The notes below the pieces were generated by a model. That model was not told the DNA's origin. It worked only from the letters and a program-made list of their open reading frames with translations, and did not search any database. Below, in pieces: positions 15,132 through 64,000 of a stretch of DNA of 64,000 nucleotides. The number at the start of each line of letters is the position of its first letter. The first letter of the stretch is position 1. The position numbers and the translations under genes were made by a program. The DNA is from Onchidella celtica (Eukaryota; Mollusca; Gastropoda; Systellommatophora; Onchidiidae): NCBI GenBank assembly GCA_963931925.1, contig OZ007569.1, positions 25,522,524-25,586,523 on the forward strand. The letters run 5' to 3'.

Positions 15132-16054
15132 GAAGTTGGGGAGTAACCCATGTAAACCAGTTTAAGACGATGGGGAGTAACCCATGTAAACCAGTTTAAG
15201 ACGATGGGGAGTAACCCATGTAAACCAGTTTAAGACGATGGGGAGTAACCCATGTAAACCAGTTTAAGACGATGGGGAGTAACCCATGTAAACCAGTTTA
15301 AGACGATGGGGAGTAACCCATGTAAACCAGTTTAAGACGATGGGGAGTAACCCATGTAAACCAGTTTAAGACGATGGGGAGTAACCCATGTAAACCAGTT
15401 TAAGAGGATGGGGAGTAACCCATGTAAACCAGTTTAAGACGATGGGGAGTAACCCATGTAAACCAGTTTAAGACGATGGGGAGTAACCCATGTAAACCAG
15501 TTTAAGACGATGGGGAGTAACCCATGTAAACCAGTTTAAGACGATGGGGAGTAACCCATGTAAACCAGTTTAAGACGATGGGGAGTAACCCATGTAAACC
15601 AGTTTAAGACGATGGGGAGTAACCCATGTAAACCAGTTTAAGACGATGGGGAGTAACCCATGTAAACCAGTTTAAGAGGATGGGGAGTAACCCATGTAAA
15701 CCAGTTTAAGACGATGGGGAGTAACCCATGTAAACCAGTTTAAGAGGATGGGGAGTAACCCATGTAAACCAGTTTAAGACGATGGGGAGTAACCCATGTA
15801 AACCAGTTTAAGACGATGGGGAGTAACCCATGTAAACCAGTTTAAGACGATGGGGAGTAACCCATGTAAACCAGTTTAAGACGATGGGGAGTAACCCATG
15901 TAAACCAGTTTAAGACGATGGGGAGTAACCCATGTAAACCAGTTTAAGACGATGGGGAGTAACCCATGTAAACCAGTTTAAGACGATGGGGAGTAACCCA
16001 TGTAAACCAGTTTAAGACGATGGGGAGTAACCCATGTAAACCAGTTTAAGAGGA
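15132..16054. repeat. 34-bp minisatellite, about 27 copies
   Basis: A unit beginning GACGATGGGGAGTAACCCAT repeats with an exact 34-bp period, for example GACGA at 15166 and again at 15200. The copies are nearly identical; the main variant is GAGGATGGGG in place of GACGATGGGG, seen near 15403, 15674, 15745 and in the last unit. Such homogeneity implies recent amplification or ongoing gene conversion. The unit contains a small self-complementary block, GGGGAGTAACCC. It ends directly against a foldback element at 16073. Confidence 0.98.
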
Positions 16055-48619: not shown

Positions 48620-49620
48620 CCAAACATTTGGATTTTCAGTAACGAACTACCATGTGGAGTTCAAAGCCTACATTGAACAAAAAAATGTAAACGCACTTTT
48701 ATTCCACACTACCAGGTCACAATTTATAGTATTCATAATATGAATTACCAGAAACCAGCTGATTATAAAACACAGGCCTTCTTTCAAATCGGCAAAGGCA
48801 GTATGTGACTGCAACACTAAGCATTTCGAGTTTCCGTAACGAACTCTCCCGCGTGACACTCAAAATGTATGACTTTGATCGTGTCATCTAAGTTTTGGGT
48901 CGTCAAGTTCAAATGTAAAAATTGTATTGCATGCAAGTTTACTAACATCAGTGCAACTGATAAATATGTGTTCTTTCAGATCCGGGCTGCCGTACGTTAA
49001 TGCAACACTGAGCATTTCGAGTTTCAATAACGAACGCCCACGTGAAGCTCAAAGCCTATTGAAAATGTGGTCGTAGTTTTATTTCTTGCTACACGGCACC
49101 AAATCAAGTTCTGTAAATGTGAACTTTTTAAACCAAATGACAACAAAAGAAAAACTTTCGTTGAGATCGGCGTATGCCATTGAAACACAAAACATTTCGG
49201 GTTTACGTTACGAACATCCATTGATGTTATCATCCAATTTAGACTTATGATCACATCATTGTAGGAAATTTGTATTCATTATGTGTGACGGACACAAGTG
49301 ACACATTACGAATTTAATGTACAACAGGCTACCGTTTATTGATTTTTTCCCCCCTCAGTATGCAGTGCGTTATTAAACACCATGCAATATGTGTTGCCGT
49401 AACGAACTCCAGATGTAGCTACCGGGAAATAATTCAGTCATGTTCAGTATCGGGGCATTGGATGGGGTGATTTACAATAATGAGAAAGATATCCGCTGAG
49501 CGAAAGTCGCCTTTTAAATGCAAGAAATAAAAAAAATCTTTTTACAGCACGGCGTTCGTCACGTCAACACAACGCCATGTAGGGTTTCAATAACGCACGC
49601 ACTAGTGTAGCAATCTTCCC
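48620..49620. repeat. Decayed 190-bp tandem repeat, copy-1 array
   Basis: The anchor word TTTCAGTAACGAACT or variants recurs near 48641, 48838, 49029, 49209, 49402 and 49592, giving spacings of about 197, 191, 180, 193 and 190 bp. Between anchors the words CAAAGCCTA, TTTTATT, TTCAGATCGG and TGCAACACTAAGCATTTCGA recur in order. The period is close to a nucleosome repeat. Confidence 0.75.
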
Positions 49621-49952
49621 CGACTCGTCGCGCTGATCATTTGGCATGTTGCCAAGAAGTGTTTACACGGACTATACCTTTATTATGTTTAAGGCCAAAG
49701 CGCCTGATTTCCATTTCGCAAGTTTTACACACATTTGAGAGTCTGTTCGTTATTAAACACGAGGGCAATTATGAAAAGAAACGCTGTTTTGACCTTAAAT
49801 AATGCGTACACCATGCATTTCTGGTTTTTTAGCGCACATCTGATTCTCGCTGGATCCCACAGTCCAATAAATTCATTCAATATTGAAATTGCACATACTT
49901 CAGTAAGGAAGTGGGTGTACGTTATTTGAGTGATAATCAACACCAAACTTAC

Positions 49953-50015
49953 CCATCGTCTTGTTGCCGTTCTGCTCCATATCCGTTGATAGTGTTGAGT
50001 CACCTTTGAGATCAC
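49953..50015 (-). CDS. Candidate exon (copy 1), low support
   Basis: A 63-nt interval is bounded by GATTAG (acceptor-like, weak pyrimidine tract) and a strong donor GATGG|GTAAGT. In phase 0 it is open and would continue the frame of the exon at 51266-51357. In another frame it holds ATGGAGCAGAACGGC and could be a first exon. The nearly identical copy is at 62032-62094. I cannot decide between these. Confidence 0.25.
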
Positions 50016-51265
50016 CTAATCAGCTCTTGAAAATTCACCCGCGGACCTATCGCGACCGCATGCTTCGAGCCGAACGGCCACTTACCAGCAGCGTACGTTA
50101 CCGGTTATAAACACGATGACGGGTCTGCCGACTACCTGGCTCTGTAGGACAAAGACGGGCCACGTGCGTGATTCCGTTCTTTGTGTGAAGACAAAGGGGC
50201 TATTATGCAATAAAAATCACGCCGCTATTTAAAAGTCCAGCGGTCAGAAATTCACGTTTCCAGCAGAAAGCATCATGTTGACGAAAGTTAACACCAAAAG
50301 TAACTTACGAAGGGCGATCTTTTGACCCCGCCATACACACTCCTTGCCGAGAGAAGAGGCTAGCGCGCCATACACACATTTAGACTGTTATATCAGGATT
50401 GCTGTAGCCTGTTTACATTAAGTGTCAAGGTCTCCAGTTTTACGGAATATAGCTTTGATCACAACATCCCTAAAAATGTCACACTTTTTGTTACAAAATC
50501 CCGATCCATCCACCCACATTACATTTCAAAAGAATAATTATACATAGCTTTTAGTAGACACAGAGGATGTGAATGGAAAGATACACCATTTGTGCATCAT
50601 TTTTACCATTTTCTGTTGACAAACAAGTATTCTGTAGGAAAACAGACGAGGGACAAATAGATTGGTATGGTGAAAACACCAGTGTACAGCAAATCAGATT
50701 TTGACCCATATATTAATTATATTACGAAACAAACATGCAAAAATACAGATGTTACATGGCAATGAACATTGTTGTTTACTTCAAGCATACTTTTAATTAT
50801 AGCCATCGTCTTCCTTATCCCAATTGCCACCTTCCTGCCAAATTTAAGGCCTGAAGAGTGTATAGTTTGGTCAGTTCATCATCATCATTGCCTTTCTCAC
50901 CCTGGATCAGGGTATAGGCCACCAACAAACACTTTCCATCCCTCTCTATCATGGGCCAGCCTCTTCACATTACTCTACTAACCAATACATCTCAAGCACT
51001 TAGACAATGTACTAATTATAACAACACTGTGCTAATTATAACAACACTGCTAACTTTAACTCATTATCGAGCGTGATAGGGCATAGCAGCAAATGTTTTT
51101 ATACCGATCAACTACAAACTAAACCACGTGGACAGCAGTAGCGTGGTCATCGCGCATCGGCCAGGGTCAGTGTGACCCAGATATGATTCCCCATGAGTAA
51201 GGTCACTGACCGACCGGCCTGCGGGCTTTACAGGTAGTGCGTGGGGTATAGGTTAATATACTTAC

Positions 51266-51357
51266 TTTTTCTTTGGGTTTTGTCTTCTTAATTTTTGATA
51301 TGTTTGAAGGTTTGTAAGTCCTGCTAGAGCTCCTGTTGATGTCCAGTTCAGTCATGT
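51266..51357 (-). CDS. Exon of unrecognised basic protein (copy 1)
   Basis: Acceptor TTTTAATTACAG precedes 51357 and donor AAAAA|GTAAGT follows 51266. The 92 nt take a split Asp codon and encode MTELDINRSSS, then a Lys-rich end (KIKKTKPKEK). The phase fits exactly with the exon ending at 54722 (G|AC = Asp). I therefore place it as the next exon of the same minus-strand gene, across the inserted gypsy-basonuclin unit. Confidence 0.65.
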
Positions 51358-52150
51358 CTGTAATTAAAATACATGTAATTGTACAACCAATTACTAGTTA
51401 CTCAGACCGATTCCATTGCAATCAAATCTGTCCTCAATAACTGAAATTCCCCCAAATGTGAAATATTCTTGTGAAAAGAGCTTAAATTCAGCTAGGCAAA
51501 ATAATTAGCAAAATCTACATAAAAGATTGAAGAAATGTCTGATAGATTAATGCAAACACCTTAATCTGCTCCTTAAAATATAAGATAAAATGTTTCACAT
51601 TTGACAAAGTTTATTTCGCAAAAAAGAGAAGTTTCTTGATGAAAAATGGTGATTCAATGCTGGTGTGAGTGACCTGAAATGCACGGTAAAAAAGTCTGTC
51701 GTCACAGGACGGAGATTTGGTGAATGTTCTTATAATACAAGTAATACACCCTAACAGTAATAGCAGAAAGACTTGGTTGCCTTTTGTCACCTGCACCAAG
51801 CTGAATATAATTGTTTGATGGATATATGCAAAAGACAAACTGAAATAATTATGAAATAAATCAGCTTGTCTTTGACTGTCAAATCACAGTGTATTCTAAG
51901 ACTAACACCAATAGTGAAATTATTCACTGCTGTGCATTTCAAATTTTAGGTGAAATCAAAGGATTAGGGAGTTTTACAATAATATTATAATAAGCAACAT
52001 TTTATACTCGCATGGACATCCACATTAAATCACATTATTATTATTATATTATTATGCATGTTCCCATGTATAATGTAACAATACTTCATCACAGCATGAC
52101 TTAGGCAACCAACCCCCTCCCCACCCTCAATTATTAAATTGTTATTACCT

Positions 52151-52271
52151 TAAAGCGTGTTACCTTATCTCATGAATCCCACAAACTCTGTCTCGGTAGG
52201 GAAGTGGTGTAGCCTTTATACCAGAAATTTGTGCCAGGTATTGGCTGCCAAGTTGACTAATGTACGCCACA
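52151..52271 (-). mobile_element. 3' LTR of the composite element
   Basis: On the minus strand it begins TGTGGCGTACATTAG just after the polypurine tract. TATA sequence GGTATAAAGG lies about 48 bp in, and the LTR then contains GAGATAAG|GTAACA, a perfect splice-donor consensus. The end is placed before AGGT at 52147-52150; an alternative end at GGTAACA (52158) would give TGT...ACA termini. At 114-121 bp it is a very short LTR. Confidence 0.7.
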
Positions 52272-52284
52272 ATACTCCCCCTCT
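52272..52284 (-). other. Polypurine tract
   Basis: AGAGGGGGAGTAT on the minus strand lies directly before the LTR and just after the integrase stop codon. This is the primer for plus-strand synthesis in LTR elements, and it fixes the LTR start. Confidence 0.75.
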
Positions 52285-52286
52285 AG

Positions 52287-52907
52287 TTATGGAATAACGT
52301 AATCTTGCAGGAGTCGTTTGGGAAAGCGGACTTGTCGTCCTCGCTGTGTGACGTTTTGCTGCTGTTGAATGTTTTTGTCGGTACATATTGTACTTGATGC
52401 TGGTTGTTGTGGGTGGCCACTAGCGTGCGTGAAACGTTTGGTTTCCGCTAGGGGTTGCTGTCGCTCTGTGTAAGCGGCTTTGAGTCGGTCAATGGAAACG
52501 AACTCAGCGCGTCCATTTCGAGAAAGTTTATAACATTTCTTATTTCTCGATAGTACGAGAAACGGACCGTCGTAGGTGGGTTGAAGAGGTTTTCTTACAG
52601 CGTCGTGCCTTACGTAGACATGTGTTGCTTGCGGCAGGCTGTAGTCAATATGACTGTTGCGCTGTTGTACTCTAGTGGGGGTGGCAGTGATGCGGTTCAT
52701 GTGTTGTCGCAGTCTGCTAACATATGATGTTGGGTCTTCAACTGGTTCTGGAGATGTCTGAACGAAATCTCCGGGGACTCTCAGTGTAGAACCATAAACC
52801 AACTCTGCTGCAGAACATTGTAGGTCTTCCTATAGGGTGGTTCGGATTCCAAGTAGGACGAGTGGGAGAGTTTCGGTCCATTTGTCAGTTTCATGGCACT
52901 TGAGTGC
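52287..52907 (-). pseudogene. Ty3/gypsy integrase C-terminus, one nonsense codon
   Basis: The frame reads KGALKCHETDKWTETLPLVL, LGIRTTL, then an in-frame TAG (52830-52832) where Lys is usual, then EDLQCSAAELVYGS, typical of the end of the integrase core. A C-terminal DNA-binding barrel follows (GPFLVLSRNKKCYKL, VSIDRLKAAY), then a Gln-rich tail to a stop at 52287. The frame upstream is continuous with the basonuclin sequence with no intervening stop, so the chimera is in frame. Confidence 0.85.
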
Positions 52908-54610
52908 TCCTTTGCTATTACTTCTTTGGGTTCCATCTACTTTTTCTAGAGATGTAATATTTACCTTGCCAGTATCTGGTGTGCTTTCTCCATTACATGC
53001 TATAGCAGTGTTGCTGCCATGTCCAGGTGATGGCTTCCCTGTGGGATCTTTGTCATCAGAATTGTCATCACTAGCCATCCGACTCTCTCCTTGTTGTGCA
53101 CATCTCGTGGGAGCTGCATTCTTCCTTCTGTTTCCCCCTCTCATTCCACCTTCATTCTTCAGACTCGTTTCATCAGCTTCCACCTCCTCATCTCTTTTAT
53201 CTTCTTTGTCATCCGCCACAGCATCTAGATCTATCTCCAGCTTCATCTCTCCATCATACTTTTTAGTTAGATCACAGGGCTCTTCTTCTGAGCTGTTAGC
53301 TGAGGATATTTTGCTCAGATCAGTAGGTAGTTCCTCGTCTAGTTTAACCCTTTTCTCTGGGGGTGGCAGGAACGGAAACTGGGCAGACATCTCAATGAAG
53401 AAGCTGGAGTCTGGCCTTATAATACGTGGTGTATCCAGAATTGGAAGAACTTGTGTGGGGATGGCTTGGGCATTGGTGGGGTTTGTGATGGACATCGTAG
53501 GGGTGGACGAGGCTACAGGAGTCACAGAACCATTGCTGGATGAGAGGTCCAATTCCTCAGATACATCATGTTCATCTTTCCTCTTCTGAGGCATGTGAAG
53601 TTTGGGATTGGGGTTGGCACTATGCCTGTTCCTGCTTCTCCTTGAGCTGAACATCATATTACAACCTTCCACTGTGCATTTGTGCATCTCCTTGAGGTGG
53701 ACAGCGCTGTAATGGATCTTGAGAGCACCTTTATCACAGAATGTTTTATTACAAGCCGTGCACAGCACTCTCTTTTTACCATTAGGTCCTACAAAAGTGC
53801 TGCCGAAATTTGCTGAGGGTGTCCACTGGCGTTTGATGGGGTTGGTTGACTTTCGCATATGCTGTTTATTCTTCTTTTCTCCATCTGATGGTGAGTCAGG
53901 GTTATCTTTATTGGAGTAGTCCAGAACTTCTCCATCTTCCTCAGATCCTGATGCATATTGATCACCACCATCCACTTCATCCAATCCTTGAGGTTGGTGT
54001 TGCTGTGGCTGTAGGACCTGATGTGACGGTGATGTTGTGACTGAGGAGACCACGGTAGGTGTGGTGCTCAGGTTCTTTGGGCTGTCACATAGGGGAGATC
54101 GGCGGGCTGCTGACTTGTCCAAACTCCCAGGACTAAGGCTGATGGCAGGACTTGCTTGTTCTTTACGGGCATCAAATGGCTGCATAACCTGTAGGCGATT
54201 GAGGGGTGGGGTAGCCAGTGGGGTAGTAGAAGTGGTTGGGGTCTGGGGCAGGGTTACAGTTCTTGCATCTCTGCTGGGGCTGTAGGTGGGTGAGATGAGG
54301 GGAGAGGTTATCATCCGATTGCCTGGTGGGATGAAAGGAACAGCTCTGGTCCCAAACAGCTGACGTGTTGATTCATAAGATTTGATATAATTTTGCATAG
54401 ACAAGTTACTGCGCTCGATGAACTTCTTGATATCCGATTCTGCCCGTGAGGTTTGTTTGACCAAAACTTCATGTCGATCTTTGGTATCCTGGAGTCTAAT
54501 CTCCTGAGCTATGGCTTTGGTTTCTCCGAACCGCAAGAACTGCTGCAGCACGACCATCTCTTCCTCTCGAGTGGCCACACACCATTTGTCCAAGACACGC
54601 CCAGAGCTAT
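52908..54610 (-). CDS. Basonuclin/disco-type zinc-finger coding segment (partial)
   Basis: The frame is open from 54608. Near its start is EEEMVVLQQFLRFGETKAI, the conserved QQFLRFGETK block of basonuclins. About 280 residues on comes a C2H2 finger pair, CTACNKTFCDKGALKIHYSAVHL then HKCTVEGCNMMFSSRRSRNRH, highly conserved in basonuclin and disco proteins, which are nuclear DNA-binding regulators. A Ser/Thr/Pro-rich stretch, the signature EELDLSSSNG, PTDLSK and PCDLTKKYDG (CtBP-like PxDLS/T motifs) and an acidic region follow. It lacks the later finger pairs and passes in frame into gypsy integrase near 52908. It has no in-frame ATG at the 5' end before VATREEEM, as expected of an internal exon. 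The segment has one uninterrupted frame of about 567 codons. Confidence 0.85.
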
Positions 54611-54719
54611 CCTTATCTCATGAATCCCACAAACTCTGTCTCGGTAGGGAAGTGGTGTAGCCTTTATACCATAAATTTGTGCCAGGTATTGGCTGCCAAG
54701 TTGACTAATGTACGCCACA
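54611..54719 (-). mobile_element. 5' LTR of the composite element, truncated at a splice donor
   Basis: It matches 52163-52271 at 108 of 109 bases (ATAAATT versus AGAAATT). It starts TGTGGCG at 54719 and stops after GAGATAAG(G), exactly where the other LTR continues as the donor GTAACA. The next bases, GATAGCTCTGGG, begin the basonuclin frame (DSSGRVLDKW). The TATA box is retained. Confidence 0.8.
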
Positions 54720-54721
54720 AC

Positions 54722-54957
54722 CTGTTTCATCTGAATTTGAGTCTGAGAATAGAGATGGTGACCGTGGTTTCCCCTTGCCTGAATTTTCTAGAGAGGACTC
54801 AGATATAGCAGACAAACCAAGGTCTTTTGTCATATTCCTGAAGGGGGGTGGGGGGGGCAGATTCATCAGCTTGTAGTGAACGATAAGTATCTCTTGGTGG
54901 GGTGATGTTCCTTGGTGCTTTGGATTTCTTCAGCTGTTTTAGTTCATCAGTTTTACC
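54722..54957 (-). CDS. Exon of unrecognised basic Ser/Pro-rich protein, with a poly-C frame slip
   Basis: Coding-like residues run KTDELKQLKKSKAPRN, ITPPRDTYRSLQADES, then, after a C-run at about 54845-54861 that changes frame, MTKDLGLSAISESSLEN and PRSPSLFSDSNSDET. The last base is at 54722 before CAG|GT, where the LTR element is inserted. The C-run is a likely sequencing or replication slip rather than biology. Upstream lies a 26-base C tract on the coding strand (54958-54983), which may be the pyrimidine tract of the acceptor. Confidence 0.5.
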
Positions 54958-55009
54958 GGGGGGGGGGGGGGGGGGGGGGGGGGTTTTCGCAGTTGAATAT
55001 TGGAGAAGT

Positions 55010-55794
55010 GATAGAGTCAAAACCAAAAACAAGAATCCTCCATTTTCTGTGGAGATTCTTTGGTAAATTCCTCTGTCTTTTGCAGCAAAGCGGTCTGTAG
55101 CGGAATTGGGCTTAATATATATGTACTTTTCTTGTTTACGAAATATGAACCAAAAGCTGAAGTAAATTTCCCTTGTTCTTTCTTAATATTCTGCAGATTT
55201 CTCTTCCTCTTTTTACCATTCGTCGGTTCAAAGTCATCCATTTCAGGTGATGAATCTACTAGGTCTGAATTTTGGCGACTTTTCTTTGATACTGGAGACA
55301 ATCCAATCCCAGAGTCTCCTTGAGAGCTATAACTATAAGAAAGATGAGTGGATATGCCAGGAAGACGCTCAGGTTGTAAGCTGCGTTTTCTTGCAGATCT
55401 ACGAAACTGAGGGGTAACAAAACTCTTGTGGAGTTGTGCTGTCATAAGGTTTGAGTGGGAGGATGGGAGTCACCTCTGGAGTTACAGATAGTGAGTCTGG
55501 TGTGCTGAGGTCTTGTTGTTTTGGCTTTGAAACTCTTTCATTGAGAAGGACTGGGGTACTTGCAAGATTGTCTTTCCCCTTTCCTGTCTTTGAGTGACAT
55601 GCTGCTTTAGGGTGCCTTTTTGCTTGTTTCGATCTGCTTCTTTTCTTTGGAGCTGAGCCAGATTTCTTGCCAGTCTTTTGCCTGACATCTGGCACATCTT
55701 CAATCATGTCAATTTCATAGGGATCACTGCAATTTTGCTCAGGGCTTGTGTTGGCTGTGACTGATTCTTCATCTGCATCATAAGCAGAATCTGC
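55010..55794 (-). CDS. Main exon(s) of unrecognised nuclear-like protein
   Basis: It begins after acceptor CTTTTCCAG at 55794: ADSAYDADEESVTANTS, IDMIEDVPDVRQKTGKK, then a Lys/Arg cluster (PKKRSRSKQAKRHPK) like a nuclear localisation signal, and SVTPEVTPIL. Near 55400-55450 the frame must change to reach TPQFRRSARKRSLQPERLPG, SYSSQGDSGIGLSPVSKKS and NGKKRKRNLQ. A one-base indel or a small intron would explain this. The 3' border is unclear. The composition (basic, Ser/Thr-Pro sites, RRSARK) suggests a chromatin or mitotic regulator. I do not recognise the family; a sororin-like protein was considered without proof. Confidence 0.55.
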
Positions 55795-56094
55795 CTGGAA
55801 AAGAGAGATTGGACTTTGAATGAATAGCTTTTGAACAAGTACAGCTTGCATGTGCCCCACCAATTTCAAAGTAATCTGTTATCATGGCTGGCTTCCTTAA
55901 TTCCTTACTTCTGACAATTTATTTAGCAAAGCACCACTTTTGACGGAAAACATTTTAAGTTAATTCTTTGGCAATGGCATAGTGTGCGCATGTTTTCTTT
56001 AAAGATCGTTAAGACTTTTCCATCAATGACTGTTTTCGATTAAAATCAGGGTTATTAAAAGACTATTAAAAATTAAATGTCAATAGATTCCTAC

Positions 56095-56145
56095 CAAACC
56101 ACTGTCCATTTGTTTTGGAGTAATGGATCTCTTCTGACTCTGAAT
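56095..56145 (-). CDS. Small exon of the same gene
   Basis: Acceptor TTCCTTTCAG and donor TTTG|GTAGGA delimit 51 nt encoding IQSQKRSITPKQMDSGL. Both ends are phase 0 and agree with the exons on either side. Confidence 0.65.
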
Positions 56146-56509
56146 CTGAAAGGAACAAAGAAGTAAAAATTGTACATACTTGCAAATACATAATTTCACA
56201 TTACATGAAAAAGATATCAAACATGCTTACTCTGAAGAAACCGAAACAGACTGAAAAATAACAAGGTGTTTTCTTTTAAAATTTATATGTCAAACGACCA
56301 ACAAACCCTATAATCATACGCTCTTTACTTCAGATTTCTTTCTGGACTTTCACACTTCCCACAATTCATAGAAAATTCCAGCAGACAATTTCAGTCAAAT
56401 TTCATTAAATTGCATAGTGCCAAAAGTTCTGCGTTGAAAATAGGAAATGTTGAATGAGACTTCATTCGACCTGCTGATGATACTTGGTGCCGTGAAAAAT
56501 TCTACGTAC

Positions 56510-56574
56510 CCTAATTCTTTCAGACAGACGTCTTGGTAATTGATCTTGATTGTCAGATTCACTGGACCGGTTAC
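56510..56574 (-). CDS. Small exon of the same gene
   Basis: Acceptor ATGTCTATAG and donor TTAGG|GTACGT delimit 65 nt. After two bases completing a split codon it encodes NRSSESDNQDQLPRRLSERI and a final Arg, ending in phase 0. The basic, Ser-rich character matches the following exons. Confidence 0.6.
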
Positions 56575-57456
56575 CTATAGACATAATGATGAATGACATT
56601 AATTAAACAACATTGTAATAGAAACAATCTATATTTTTCTAATGACTGTACTGACCTTACTGTATTGTATCTAAATAGCACGGCAGTCCCATAAGAGTCA
56701 TTAAAACAAGAATTTTTTGTGTGCCTATCACCGATATATCGGTTCATCAGCTGGTCACCCATGTGCCAATTGCCGATGTATCGGTGTACAAAAGAATGCT
56801 AGGCTATTTTGTTTTTGGGATGAAAGAAAGTCAACTTTCTATTAATATAGATGATGCTGTAGTTAGTTTTCTTTCATCTCCCCCCTTTTCCTGTATTGGC
56901 AAGCTTGGAAAAATTCATGGCACACAAAGAGTTCATCAGAATCAGACTATTATATGACACTAGATGACCAACCGGGCCTTGCCCAGAATAAACAATAATG
57001 TGCTCCCCCCCTCCCCCCTCTCTCATATAATAAAAGTAATAAACCACAGTCTTGCTTCAGAACTCATGCGCACCACACAACAATACGCACCAAACTGAAC
57101 GCTTGATACGGGTTACGGTACTATATATGGGTCAGAATCTGATTTGCTGTACACTTTTTGTGACACAATGATGAATTTTAAAAATTGATATCCATGCTTG
57201 AAAACCAATACATCTCATTCTGTAAACAATTGTCTTTCATACTCTGTAGCTGCCTTTTAGCATTCCCTTTGGGTTTCAACAATATCACTCATTCTTGATT
57301 GACAGGATGTATGTTACATAAACACCGTCACAACACAAAAAACAACTCAAGCACTTGTAATTAGAAGGCCAGGAAACTAATTAAGCAAGTTCATTTCATA
57401 CTGTCAGAAGAACAATCTTGTGAGTCAATAATCATTTGTGACATTCAAAATGCCTC
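56575..57456. other. Intronic or intergenic stretch
   Basis: AT-rich sequence with no recognised exon. The near-palindromic words CACCGATATATCGGT and GCCGATGTATCGGTG occur at about 56728 and 56772. Confidence 0.4.
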
Positions 57457-59205
57457 TCAGATTTGCGATCGATTACTCCTGAAACCAGCTTGCTCCTCCC
57501 GAAGTTTTGGGTCTGTTGCATTCTGTATTCGCTTGAGAATAATCCGATTGAAAACCTTTCCTGGGATGGAGAGAAGTGTGATTCCTCTGTAGTTACTACA
57601 ATTGCTGAGGTCCCCTTTTTTTGGAAGCTTCACGAGGTGTCCTTCCTTCCAGTCCTTTGGAAACTTGCCTCCGATCCAAATCCTCCAGAATAGTGAGTGC
57701 AGACCCTCTGCAGCCCCAGCAGCATCTGCCTTCAGCGCCTCTGGTGGGATCTGATCTGGTCCAGCTGCCTTGCCCCGATTTAACTGCTTTATGGCATCAT
57801 TAATCTCTGCTTTAGTCGGAGGGGCGCAACTGATCGGTAAATCATTTCCTGCGGGTAGAATGTCGGGTGGGTTGCTTGGTGGAGGTCTGTTCAAGAGGCT
57901 GTTAAAATGTTCTATCCATCTTTTTGCCTGAGCTTCCTTTCCAAAAATAGCCTTCCTGTTGTAATCCTTGACAGGAACTTCAGGTTTTCCATATTTTCCA
58001 GTAAGAGTCTTTGTAGTCTGGTAGAGGATCCTCATGTGTCCTCCTGTTGCTGCCTTCTCTGCTAACATTCCTATGAACTCCTCTTTGTCTTTTTTAATTG
58101 ATTTTTTGACCTCTTTAGCTGATGCTCGGTACTCTTCCTGGTTACCAACTCTTGAGCTTCTTGTACGACTTGCATTTACCTGTTCTTTTAGGTCTCTTCT
58201 TATCCTTATCAAGTCCAGTGATTTTTGACTGATCCATTCCTTGTGTTCCACTTTCTTTTCCCCAAGAACATCCCGACATGTCGATGTAAATACTCCTTTT
58301 ACCTTAGCCCAGTGAGTCTCCAAATCTACTGTCTCTTCGAGGTCAACAAGAGGTTTGAATCTATTCCTCAGTGTCAGCTGGAACTCTTCCTTCTTGTCTC
58401 CATCCAGAAGGCTCACTTGAAACTTTCTCCTCTTTGTTCCTGCTCTGGTACCTTGTTTCTTGAGGCGGAGTTTTGAGTCTTGCCAGCAGCATGTGATGGT
58501 CAGATCCAACATCAGCTCCTCTCTGCACTATGACATCCTCCAGTGAGCGTCTGAATCGTCGGGTGATGCAAAAGTGGTCAATCTGGTTTTCAGTTACCGT
58601 ACTCCATCCGGTGAAATCCAAGTGGCCTTATGGATCCTCTTGTGTGGGAGTACTGAACCTCCAATCACATAGCTGTTAAATGCGCAGAAACTTGCAAACC
58701 GCTCTCCATTCTCATTCATTTGTCCCAAACCATTGCAGCCCATAATGTCCTCATACCCTGCATTGGCGTCTCCCATTATAATCACATCTTTTCTTGGCAA
58801 TGTGTCAACTATTTCCTGAAGCTGGTTGTAGAAATCGTCCTTGTCCTCATCGGTTGCTTCATTTGTTGGGGCGTATATCTGCACAATGTTCATGTTGATG
58901 TTCTTGTTCTTTGTAGTAAATGATGCCAATATAATTCTCCTTCCGTAGGGTTCCCATCCCCTCAGTGACCTTTGGGCGTGCTTGCTCAAGATGATCGCTA
59001 CTCCTTCTGTGTGCTTTTTGTCCTCCCTTCCAGAATACAAAATCTTTTCCCCAGAATTAAGTTGTTTCAGTCCGGACTGTATCCAGCGGGTCTCACCAAC
59101 TCCAAGTATGTGCAGTCTGTATCGCCTCATCTCCATTGTAACCTGGGCACTCTTTCCTGCTTCATACATGGAGCGGACATTCCACGATGTTTGATGAAGG
59201 AGCAG
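57457..59205 (-). pseudogene. Endonuclease-reverse transcriptase fragment, two frameshifts
   Basis: The endonuclease starts TSWNVRSMYEAGKSAQ (about 59195), with GVGETRW, IVQIYAPTNE, IIMGDANAGYEDI and, after a frameshift near 58610, QIDHFCITRRFR and GSDHHMLLARLK. A second frameshift near 58490 leads into a Lys-rich linker and the reverse-transcriptase N-terminus: LNRGKAAGPDQIPPEALK, LVKLPKKGDLSNCSNYRGIT and EEQAGFRSNRS. The YADD-type active site is missing. It is a different family from the 40-42 kb element, being clearly divergent in sequence. Confidence 0.85.
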
Positions 59206-59480
59206 TCAGGCCAGTGGAGTCCTTTCGGCTTTGTCCATTGTCCTTCATTGAATCTACAGGTGCAGATGCTCCCCCTTCTCCCAAGATAAAAGACTGATTT
59301 AAAGTATTTGCTTGTGTTTCTGTAACTGGTTTATTTTTACAGGGTGGGTAGTTGGCCCACCGCCAACTGGCTCTTCTCGGGAGACCAGGACCTTTGCACC
59401 TTTAGTCGCCTCTTACGACACGCAGTATCACGTCAGATGTATTCTTTGCTGTCCCTCTTCTGCAAGAGGGCCCCGCATCT
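57457..59480 (-). mobile_element. Second RTE-like retrotransposon, 3'-truncated
   Basis: It lies between candidate exons of the nuclear-protein gene, in the same orientation. The leader (about 59210-59480) contains CGTGTCGTAAGAGGCGACTA on the minus strand, a word I associate with the 5' ends of such elements in snails (from memory, unverified). Coding ends at GFRSNRS near 57465, before the catalytic reverse-transcriptase palm. Confidence 0.8.
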
Positions 59481-59747
59481 GCACGGGCGGCCCAGGACTA
59501 TTACTTTCAGTAAAAGTACTGTGGTTTGAAAACCAAAGTTAAAACATCATTGTGGCCTGTAAAAAATCTCCTTTATCTCAGCTGCATTTTCTGCAATCTC
59601 AACCTTTTCTCTGTGGCCTCTGACTAGCATGAACATCCTGCTACTTTAAACTCTTTAGAAAAGTCACTGAGGATTTGAGATCTAAAAATAATGGTATATT
59701 TAAAACACTTAAACATTCGCAAATCAAAGCATGAACTGATATTTTAC

Positions 59748-59810
59748 CTGGGCTGAAGCTAAATTATCATTGGTGTGGTGTAATGAATGAAACTCATCAG
59801 CCATAGCCAT
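59748..59810 (-). CDS. Candidate first coding exon
   Basis: ATG at 59810 opens MAMADEFHSLHHTNDNLASA plus a final Gln, followed by a good donor CCCAG|GTAAAA. It ends in phase 0, whereas the exon at 56574 needs one base carried over, so another exon must lie between or this belongs elsewhere. The intervening DNA is interrupted by the second RTE-like element. Confidence 0.4.
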
Positions 59811-60149
59811 GTTTGCAGATCTGCTTATTAACTGTGACTCAATAACAATTCATTGCATTATTACTGCGGTAACATGTCTGAGATGAAATTATCATTTGAT
59901 AATATCAAATATTTTACATAGATTGCATGCGTCTAAACAAAAAAGTTTCCCGTCCTTGCAGATCTAGATGTCCCAGCAACATGGAATGGCAATACATTAT
60001 TACAGACATGAGTTTCCATAATATGTATAGCCTACTATTATAAAGCTTTTTTATAAATAATTCTTCCATGATTACTGAAAGTTTCTAATAGCTGCAGAGT
60101 ATAGGCTACACAGATGGACGCTTAAGCCTAGATAAACAATGAAGATCAG

Positions 60150-61700
60150 AAGAAGGAAACCAAATCAGTTTCAGTAACGAACTCCTACGCGAAGGTCAAA
60201 GTCTAAGTTGAAAAATGTAGACAACCTACTTTTATTCCTTGCTATCAAGGCACAATTTAAAGTTTTCATCATGTGAATTACTTCTTTCAGACAAAGACCT
60301 TATGTGACTGCAACACTAAGCATTTTGAGTTTCAGTAACGAACTCCCCCACGTCACCCAAAATGTACGACTCTGATCGTGCCATCCAAGTTTTAGGTCTC
60401 GGTGTTCAAATGTAATCAAAATTTTATTGCATTCAATTTTACGAACATCAGTGCAACTGATATCAATGTGTGCTTTCAGATCCGGACTGCCCTACGTTAT
60501 TGCAACATTAAGCATTTCGAGTTTCACTAACAAACGCCCATGCGAAGATCAAAGCCTACCGAAAGCTGTAATCGTACTTTTATTTCTTGCTCAACAGCAC
60601 CAAAACAAGTTTTAATAATGTGAATTAGTTGAAACCCAATGACAACAAAAGAAAAGCCTTCTTTCAGATCGGCAACGGCCGTGTGTTACTGCAACACCAA
60701 ACATTTGGATTTTCAGTAACGAACTACCATGTGGAGTTCAAAGCCTACATTGAGAAAAAAAAATGTAAACGCACTTTTATTCCACACTACCAGGTCACAA
60801 TTTATAGTATTCATAATATGAATTACCAGAAACCAGCTGATTATAAAACATAGGCCTTCTTTCAAATCGGCAAAGGCAGTATGTGACTGCAACACTAAGC
60901 ATTTCGAGTTTCCGTAACGAACTCTCCCGCGTGACACTCAAAATGTATGACTTTGATCGTGTCATCTAAGTTTTGGGTCGTCAAGTTCAAATGTAAAAAT
61001 TGTATTGCATGCAAGTTTACTAACATCAGTGCAACTGATAAATATGTGTTCTTTCAGATCCGGGCTGCCGTACGTTAATGCAACACTGAGCATTTCGAGT
61101 TTCAATAACGAACGCCCACGTGAAGCTCAAAGCCTATTGAAAATGTGGTCGTAGTTTTATTTCTTGCTACACGGCACCAAATCAAGTTCTGTAAATGTGA
61201 ACTATTTAAACCAAATGACAACAAAAGAAAAACTTTCGTTGAGATCGGCGTATGCCATTGAAACACAAAACATTTCGGGTTTACGTTACGAACATCCATT
61301 GATGTTATCATCCAATTTAGACTTATGATCACATCATTGTAGGAAATTTGTATTCATTATGTGTGACGGACACAAGTGACACATTACGAATTTAATGTAC
61401 AACAGGCTACCGTTTATTGATTTTTTTCCCCCCTCAGTATGCAGTGCGTTATTAAACACCATGCAATATGTGTTGCCGTAACGAACTCCAGATGTAGCTA
61501 CCGGGAAATAATTCAGTCATGTTCAGTATCGGGGCATTGGATGGGGTGATTTACAATAATGAGAAAGATATCCGCTGAGCGAAAGTCGCCTTTTAAATGC
61601 AAGAAATAAAAAAAATCTTTTTACAGCACGGCGTTCGTCACGTCAACACAACGCCATGTAGGGTTTCAATAACGCACGCACTAGTGTAGCAATCTTCCCC
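60150..61700. repeat. Decayed 190-bp tandem repeat, longer array
   Basis: Anchors lie at 60176, 60337, 60529, 60718, 60916, 61107, 61287, 61480 and 61671, with spacings of 161, 192, 189, 198, 191, 180, 193 and 191 bp. The duplication junction at 60695/60696 falls inside this array and does not disturb the period. Confidence 0.8.
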
Positions 61701-62031
61701 GACTCGTCGCGCTGATCATTTGGCATGTTGCCAAGAAGTGTTTACACGGACTATACCTTTATTATGTTTAAGGCCAAAGCGCCTGATTTCCATTTCGCAA
61801 GTTTTACACACATTTGAGAGTCTGTTCGTTATTAAACACGAGGGCAATTATGAAAAGAAACGCTGTTTTGACCTTAAATAATGCGTACACCATGCATTTC
61901 TGGTTTTTTAGCGCACATCTGATTCTCGCTGGATCCCACAGTCCAATAAATTCATTCAATATTGAAATTGCACATACTTCAGTAAGGAAGTGGGTGTACG
62001 TTATTTGAGTGATAATCAACACCAAACTTAC

Positions 62032-62094
62032 CCATCGTCTTGTTGCCGTTCTGCTCCATATCCGTTGATAGTGTTGAGTCACCTTTGAGATCAC
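62032..62094 (-). CDS. Candidate exon (copy 2), low support
   Basis: Near-identical duplicate of 49953-50015, with the same splice signals and the same uncertainty. Confidence 0.25.
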
Positions 62095-63344
62095 CTAATC
62101 AGCTCTTGAAAATTCACCCGCGGACCTATCGCGACCGCATGCTTCGAGCCGAACGGCCACTTACCAGCAGCGTACGTTACCGGTTATAAACACGATGACG
62201 GGTCTGCCGACTACCTGGCTCTGTAGGACAAAGACGGGCCACGTGCGTGATTCCGTTCTTTGTGTGAAGACAAAGGGGCTATTATGCAATAAAAATCACG
62301 CCGCTATTTAAAAGTCCAGCGGTCAGAAATTCACGTTTCCAGCAGAAAGCATCATGTTGACGAAAGTTAACACCAAAAGTAACTTACGAAGGGCGATCTT
62401 TTGACCCCGCCATACACACTCCTTGCCGAGAGAAGAGGCTAGCGCGCCATACACACATTTAGACTGTTATATCAGGATTGCTGTAGCCTGTTTACATTAA
62501 GTGTCAAGGTCTCCAGTTTTACGGAATATAGCTTTGATCACAACATCCCTAAAAATGTCACACTTTTTGTTACAAAATCCCGATCCATCCACCCACATTA
62601 CATTTCAAAAGAATAATTATACATAGCTTTTAGTAGACACAGAGGATGTGAATGGAAAGATACACCATTTGTGCATCATTTTTACCATTTTCTGTTGACA
62701 AACAAGTATTCTGTAGGAAAACAGACGAGGGACAAATAGATTGGTATGGTGAAAACACCAGTGTACAGCAAATCAGATTTTGACCCATATATTAATTATA
62801 TTACGAAACAAACATGCAAAAATACAGATGTTACATGGCAATGAACATTGTTGTTTACTTCAAGCATACTTTTAATTATAGCCATCGTCTTCCTTATCCC
62901 AATTGCCACCTTCCTGCCAAATTTAAGGCCTGAAGAGTGTATAGTTTGGTCAGTTCATCATCATCATTGCCTTTCTCACCCTGGATCAGGGTATAGGCCA
63001 CCAACAAACACTTTCCATCCCTCTCTATCATGGGCCAGCCTCTTCACATTACTCTACTAACCAATACATCTCAAGCACTTAGACAATGTACTAATTATAA
63101 CAACACTGTGCTAATTATAACAACACTGCTAACTTTAACTCATTATCGAGCGTGATAGGGCATAGCAGCAAATGTTTTTATACCGATCAACTACAAACTA
63201 AACCACGTGGACAGCAGTAGCGTGGTCATCGCGCATCGGCCAGGGTCAGTGTGACCCAGATATGATTCCCCATGAGTAAGGTCACTGACCGACCGGCCTG
63301 CGGGCTTTACAGGTAGTGCGTGGGGTATAGGTTAATATACTTAC

Positions 63345-63436
63345 TTTTTCTTTGGGTTTTGTCTTCTTAATTTTTGATATGTTTGAAGGTTTGTAAGTCC
63401 TGCTAGAGCTCCTGTTGATGTCCAGTTCAGTCATGT
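63345..63436 (-). CDS. Duplicate of the 51.3-kb exon (copy 2)
   Basis: Sequence and splice signals match 51266-51357. In a tandem duplication it would belong to the upstream copy of the gene, most of which lies beyond the window. Confidence 0.6.
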
Positions 63437-64000
63437 CTGTAATTAAAATACATGTAATTGTACAACCAATTACTAGTTACTCAGACCGATTCCATTGCAA
63501 TCAAATCTGTCCTCAATAACTGAAATTCCCCCAAATGTGAAATATTCTTGTGAAAAGAGCTTAAATTCAGCTAGGCAAAATAATTAGCAAAATCTACATA
63601 AAAGATTGAAGAAATGTCTGATAGATTAATGCAAACACCTTAATCTGCTCCTTAAAATATAAGATAAAATGTTTCACATTTGACAAAGTTTATTTCGCAA
63701 AAAAGAGAAGTTTCTTGATGAAAAATGGTGATTCAATGCTGGTGTGAGTGACCTGAAATGCACGGTAAAAAAGTCTGTCGTCACAGGACGGAGATTTGGT
63801 GAATGTTCTTATAATACAAGTAATACACCCTAACAGTAATAGCAGAAAGACTTGGTTGCCTTTTGTCACCTGCACCAAGCTGAATATAATTGTTTGATGG
63901 ATATATGCAAAAGACAAACTGAAATAATTATGAAATAAATCAGCTTGTCTTTGACTGTCAAATCACAGTGTATTCTAAGACTAACACCAATAGTGAAATT

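Follow-up and report, generated by a model that had tools for sequence, protein, structure and literature searches.

Host sequences enclosed between long terminal repeats (LTRs) are known from several systems. In LTR-mediated retroposition in metazoans (Tan et al., 2016, as outlined in the accessible text of the reviews PMC5408686 and PMC8232201), host mRNA comes to lie between LTRs by template switching at short similarities. Retroviral oncogene capture is said to depend on a chimeric transcript of element and host, and in insertion-activated oncogenes retroviral or cryptic donors are spliced to the acceptor of the gene (accessible part of PMC515179). In maize, Bs1 and other LTR elements carry fragments of host genes, and 425 intact elements from at least 189 independent captures are reported in the available portions of PMC13317346 and PMC2774510. 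The stretch analysed here (the window) contains 64,000 nucleotides of the gastropod Onchidella celtica (contig OZ007569.1) and shows on the minus strand, between positions 52147 and 54723, a gypsy LTR element with a segment of a basonuclin (BNC) gene between its LTRs. The best explanation of this structure, which we consider probable, is that an RNA started in an LTR would have been spliced onto the last exon of BNC and then recombined with gypsy RNA during reverse transcription.

Like the products of LTR-mediated retroposition outlined in those reviews, the element has host sequence between LTRs and short shared stretches at the joins. It differs from them, as far as the reviews describe them, in a 5' join that brings together a splice donor of the LTR and the acceptor of an exon, beyond a short overlap, and in the missing primer-binding site. 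It differs from retroviral oncogene capture, as presented in the accessible part of PMC515179, in being an invertebrate LTR retrotransposon with the donor inside the LTR, so that splicing would remove the primer site together with the intron. The maize cases differ in being plant elements, and the available portions of the two maize papers mention no trace of a splice site at the LTR. The usual evidence for gene capture by LTR elements is a short overlap, whereas here the join coincides with a donor-like site of the LTR and with the acceptor of the captured exon; it provides sequence evidence, in an invertebrate retrotransposon, for the spliced-chimera route of retroviral oncogene capture. The open-licence literature yielded no description of an animal LTR retrotransposon in which a splice donor inside the LTR is joined to a captured exon, which is not proof of absence, and neither an element with basonuclin in a retrotransposon nor a capture with splice donor and primer site was found there, as judged by titles and abstract openings.

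Structure of the element and the native basonuclin gene

On the minus strand, the element contains, in this order, a target-site duplication (AGGT), a 108-bp 5' LTR, 1,699 nt of BNC, a fragment of gypsy pol with a polypurine tract, a 121-bp 3' LTR and again AGGT. The upstream AGGT (54720..54723) is located at the end of a predicted host exon (..GAAACAG|GT), deduced from open frames, and the downstream copy is at 52147..52150; target duplications in this family are 4 bp long. The 5' LTR (54612..54719) corresponds to positions 1-108 of 121, lacks GTAACACGCTTTA and is not followed by a primer-binding site. Its end (54612..54620) reads ..TGAGATAAG, and the same AAG is followed in the 3' LTR by GTAACA, which resembles a splice donor. 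The 3' LTR (52151..52271) is complete (TGTGGC..CGCTTTA) and shows a TATA-like motif, GTATAAAGG, read by eye at LTR positions 51-59. A 33-base core of the LTR has two matches in the window and none in shuffled sequence, more than chance would give. The original prediction gave the LTRs 109 shared bp with one mismatch and a length of 114-121 bp: the single mismatch holds, the shared length is 108 positions, and the upper value of 121 bp is confirmed by an LTR ending in GTAACACGCTTTA.

As that prediction also stated, the 5' LTR stops directly before the BNC reading frame: position 108 closes GATAAG, and the next letters, GATAGC, are the start of an open BNC frame. The captured segment (52913..54611) passes in frame, again as foreseen, into the integrase C-terminal region of gypsy pol (52272..52914), and both share two nucleotides, CA, at the junction (52913..52914). 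The fused frame is open from 54617, has its first in-frame ATG at residue 21 and is closed by a TAG (52830-52832) about 27 codons past the join, and the pol fragment ends with the polypurine tract AGAGGGGGAGTAT, followed by the LTR. The order of integrase-type pol, polypurine tract and LTR is that of the family; relatives of this pol carry PF00665 or are named integrase or Pol, and the 180-aa pol piece itself matched no Pfam family. We take the element to be of the Ty3/gypsy type from this order and its integrase-type relatives, not from a reverse transcriptase tree. The join of LTR, BNC and pol is identical in three tandem units (2,601 bp at 100%).

In protein databases, the BNC frame matched BNC-like proteins with E values down to 2.9e-272. 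The best matches are unnamed, one of them that of Candidula, a land snail (73% identity, 92% of the query), and they are followed by basonuclin-2-like proteins of other molluscs. These matches point to a gastropod, perhaps heterobranch, host. The captured frame contains a C2H2 zinc finger, and searches of PDB and Pfam gave zinc-finger similarity only. Of what the basonuclin-2-like genes of molluscs contain, exons 1-2 and the C-terminal part are missing from the captured piece, which retains the first zinc-finger region and runs out into pol. The genome of the window itself (1.14 Gb, 43 contigs) shows the BNC segment in four places (4 of 4 candidates scored): the three tandem units and C1:96393301-96394991. 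The Candidula protein gave six matches (31 of 31 scored), which are the three units and three on C1: 96452716-96452820, 96411813-96412067 and a long one down to 96392164. The one native BNC gene that the genome yielded is thus on C1, and the locus in the window is not this gene; the refuting condition set in the original prediction, a sole BNC gene with its native exons contiguous, did not arise.

In the native gene, exon 2 ends in CTGCAG|GTGAGT, intron 2 has 16,829 bp, and the last exon begins at C1:96394992, directly after TTTTTATTGTTTACAG (TTTTTATTGTTTACAG|GATAGC). The test set beforehand, an AG acceptor directly before the captured segment, gave the expected result: the acceptor is present, with a pyrimidine tract, immediately before GATAGCTCTGGG. 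Since the native acceptor abuts the captured segment, the LTR is joined to BNC exactly where the last exon begins, and the segment is the first part of that exon. It was also asked if the segment spans native introns, and it does not; the piece is contained in one large exon, and what points to RNA is the 5' join at the exon edge alone. The copy and the native exon are identical at 1,695 of 1,699 positions, and the four differences are located at 54496 (I to R), 54212 (A to T), 54177 (silent) and 53455 (K to T). With only these four differences from the gene, and a single one among the 108 positions common to both LTRs, the event looks young, so that the insertion it came from and the RNAs of that insertion could still be present in the species. 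The element could conceivably give rise to a truncated protein or to an RNA that interferes.

The same exon edge is implied by the leaders of other proteins. Among 120 proteins listed of 1,177 found, 44 show GYILQ or GYVLQ before the exon-edge motif, 36 show another leader ending in Q, two start at the motif, four show something else, and the motif is absent in 34. The 36 other Q-ending leaders include nine times the same MFVLQ, six of only 2-3 residues and two with GYILQ and a short insert; since some are repeated or very short, they represent fewer independent cases.

The gypsy family and its splice-donor-like site

The 3' LTR with the pol tail gave 43 rows in the genome, from 40 scored of 106 candidates: the three identical BNC units, 37 other copies and three short LTR pieces. 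Parent gypsy copies with the same LTR, which the original prediction suggested looking for, therefore number at least 37 besides the BNC units. From the 6-kb stretches taken for the 37 other copies, 27 were analysed with both LTRs placed; 10 were left out, some without a 5' LTR inside the stretch and some with a split LTR (L049, also split, was kept). A complete copy of the family has about 4.34 kb. The 4-bp target duplication is present in 26 of the 27 copies, which are not all independent, and in the exception (L035) the 3' end had been assigned wrongly. The 5' LTR is complete in 25 of the 27, and the primer-binding site, ATTGGTGACC, follows it in 24. This sequence presumably resembles the 3' end of tryptophan tRNA. 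In the scanned viral contigs, the LTR piece had no matches and the integrase matched 11 stretches, none of them a relative.

The GTAACA that continues the 3' LTR had been proposed as a splice donor, and its position inside the family LTR is borne out. Position 108 is the only GT site of the LTR that agrees with the donor consensus at seven of nine positions; the other five score 3-5. Other family copies read GATAAG|GTAACACGCTTTA, as seen in three of the five other loci first examined (L004-L006) and then in more copies. The LTR ends in GATAAGGTAACACGCTTTA in copies with differing flanks and in ACGCTTTA in further copies and, since the same end stands before differing flanks, the GT after GATAAG is true LTR sequence. 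An LTR ending at GAGATA, with AGGT-AACA as host flank and the donor as an artefact, was ruled out, GTAACACGCTTTA being common to copies before differing flanks.

The primer-binding site is absent in three of the 27 copies (L013, L014 and L022), as it is in the BNC copy, and all three have target duplications. L014 and L013 are internally deleted, with the 5' LTR joined to pol after a cut at position 101 (overlap TTCACG) and at about position 74 (overlap CCT), respectively. As both carry target duplications, this gypsy family does integrate products that lack a primer site. L022 (3211-5900; C2:5.58 Mb) shows a complete 5' LTR, about 1.4 kb matching C5:5781808-5783165 (99%), gypsy 461-1210, and then gypsy from 3910 to the end; the first 400 bases or so of its captured piece are a repeat (38 of 40 scored matches cover that part only). 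Without the primer site, the BNC copy is a defective derivative of the family.

Three copies, L018, L026 and L028 (C2:0.38-0.66 Mb), have common flanks and the duplication GATG, and a duplicated block seems to carry them. In L043, L044, L045 and L049, the 3' LTR contains at about positions 74-86 a repeat that looks tRNA-derived by eye, with differing 5' lengths, from either repeated insertion at one site or template-switch copying near the RNA start.

Proposed splicing and possible template switching at the 5' join

A donor of the element joined to the acceptor of a host exon is read here from the DNA of both ends, not from RNA. The spliced capture of a BNC exon by an LTR-initiated RNA, as the original prediction proposed it, is supported by the exact acceptor and by the donor inside the family LTR, with splicing as the step that we infer. 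The main rival does without splicing from the LTR and supposes two template switches: reverse transcriptase would have left gypsy pol for ordinary BNC mRNA, and then left this mRNA at the exon 2/3 junction for gypsy R/U5, guided by AGG. These three letters are indeed shared at the join by the LTR (AAGG) and the mRNA (CAGG). The deletions in L014 and L013, which join pol to a shortened 5' LTR, are consistent with it, as are the piece that L022 took from C5 with overlaps of 1 nt (5' side) and 8 nt (3' side) and the fact that no source copy was found in the BNC intron. However, the switch would then have landed by chance on the most donor-like position of the LTR and, at the same time, precisely on the exon boundary. 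Between LTR positions 74-121 and the BNC mRNA stretch tested, 1,076 possible switch points share 3 nt or more, taken as equally likely, only one of which is the donor/acceptor pair, and 278 of them share at least 4 nt. Two switches are an unlikely origin of the element, and splicing, as judged from the joined ends, is in our view the better account than switching alone. The stretches shared at the joins, AGG at the 5' and CA at the 3', are each short enough for chance, and the 3' join looks like a template switch.

Several observations weigh against splicing from an LTR upstream of the exon. The AGG common to the LTR and the BNC mRNA means that splicing is not the sole possible route. No family LTR was found in or near BNC among 74 exact 28-mer sites of the genome, nor near BNC among 40 scored of 110 LTR candidates, and the 8.1 kb next to the exon in the 16.8-kb BNC intron show no gypsy similarity, about 8.7 kb of it not having been examined base by base. 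An element inserted upstream of the captured exon, as in activated oncogenes, was not found in these searches, which would miss diverged copies; a diverged copy in the BNC intron is possible, and the insertion may be polymorphic or lost. Outside the three BNC units, the donor was not seen to continue as GG and a base other than T, and no other spliced capture was seen with that pattern. The 5' LTR of L013 is cut at or before the likely RNA start, placed from the TATA-like motif at 51-59, which slightly lowers the odds for splicing. The 5' join of L022 shares 1 base and retains the AG of an acceptor-like site, so L022 is not a splice product and capture occurs without splicing too. The missing intron copy and the exact ends would both be accounted for by trans-splicing, in which a gypsy RNA from elsewhere would be spliced onto BNC pre-mRNA and the later steps would be the same. 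Nothing points to it directly, and it would call for an event less common than splicing out of an insertion that is lost or polymorphic; we regard it as highly improbable.

In the route proposed for cis-splicing, transcription would start in an LTR upstream of the last exon of BNC, and the LTR donor (AAG|GTAACA, position 108) would be spliced to the acceptor of this exon. In the particle, reverse transcriptase would copy the 3' end of a gypsy RNA, switch at the 2-nt CA overlap to the LTR-BNC RNA and proceed to the R region at the RNA 5' end. Because the primer site would have been removed with the intron, plus-strand transfer would take place by the remaining R/U5 overlap, and integrase would insert the product with a 4-bp duplication. 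We infer the order of these events as well as the splicing; the sequence itself displays the two exact ends, the boundary of the native exon, the identity of the LTR, the target duplication and the close match to the native exon. The BNC copy keeps roughly 30 nt between the likely RNA start and position 108, which would be the length of that overlap. The strand transfer by R/U5 despite the missing primer site, already part of the original prediction, is met by mixed evidence from the relatives: L014 is cut in R/U5, where pairing would serve, and agrees with it, whereas the fit of L013 is less clear, given its cut at or before the likely RNA start. It appears that the last copying round may proceed even after the primer-binding site is lost; the BNC copy itself could hardly start another one.

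A wider and tentative reading, to which we give a rather low probability, is that the 121-bp LTR, with its promoter-like motif and splice donor, may act as a mobile exon trap: its RNAs would splice onto downstream host exons, R/U5 pairing would replace the primer site, and exon cassettes flanked by LTRs would be reinserted. If true, exons would be shuffled in an animal by a heritable route.

The tandem array and its surroundings

The element belongs to an array in which a unit of 12,079 bp is repeated in tandem about 2.9 times, from about 49250 to 64000 and onward (L009, L010), and each unit contains host exons and a BNC element. The three BNC elements are best interpreted as copies of a single insertion, and the array is either a recent triplication or an assembly effect. 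The search for other LTR-BNC copies in the genome, recommended at the outset, gave these three identical units and no further BNC place besides the native gene. An assembly error, or a rearrangement at the DNA level, could also have fused unrelated pieces into the element, and three units this alike (units 1 and 2 differ by 1 mismatch) are unusual and may in part have been produced by the assembly. Nevertheless, the clean 4-bp duplication of the usual family length, the single-exon fragment starting at a splice site and the four differences from the native exon leave this explanation a negligible probability.

Without the element, the site of the predicted host exon end would read GAAACAG|GTAATAAC, a donor with which the open phase of the next predicted exon (near 51267-51359) agrees, as reasoned from sequence alone. 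The predicted exons 51267-51359 and 54723-56600 (minus strand) suggest a low-complexity, nuclear-type host gene, with the element at one predicted splice donor. A 33-nt inverted repeat (50681-50713 and 57123-57155), 97% complementary and 6.4 kb apart, flanks the BNC element. Elsewhere in the window, 15137-16054 contains a tandem array with a 68-bp period and units about 99% identical, and 57457-59205 (minus strand) shows two long frames that resemble a non-LTR (LINE) reverse transcriptase and endonuclease.

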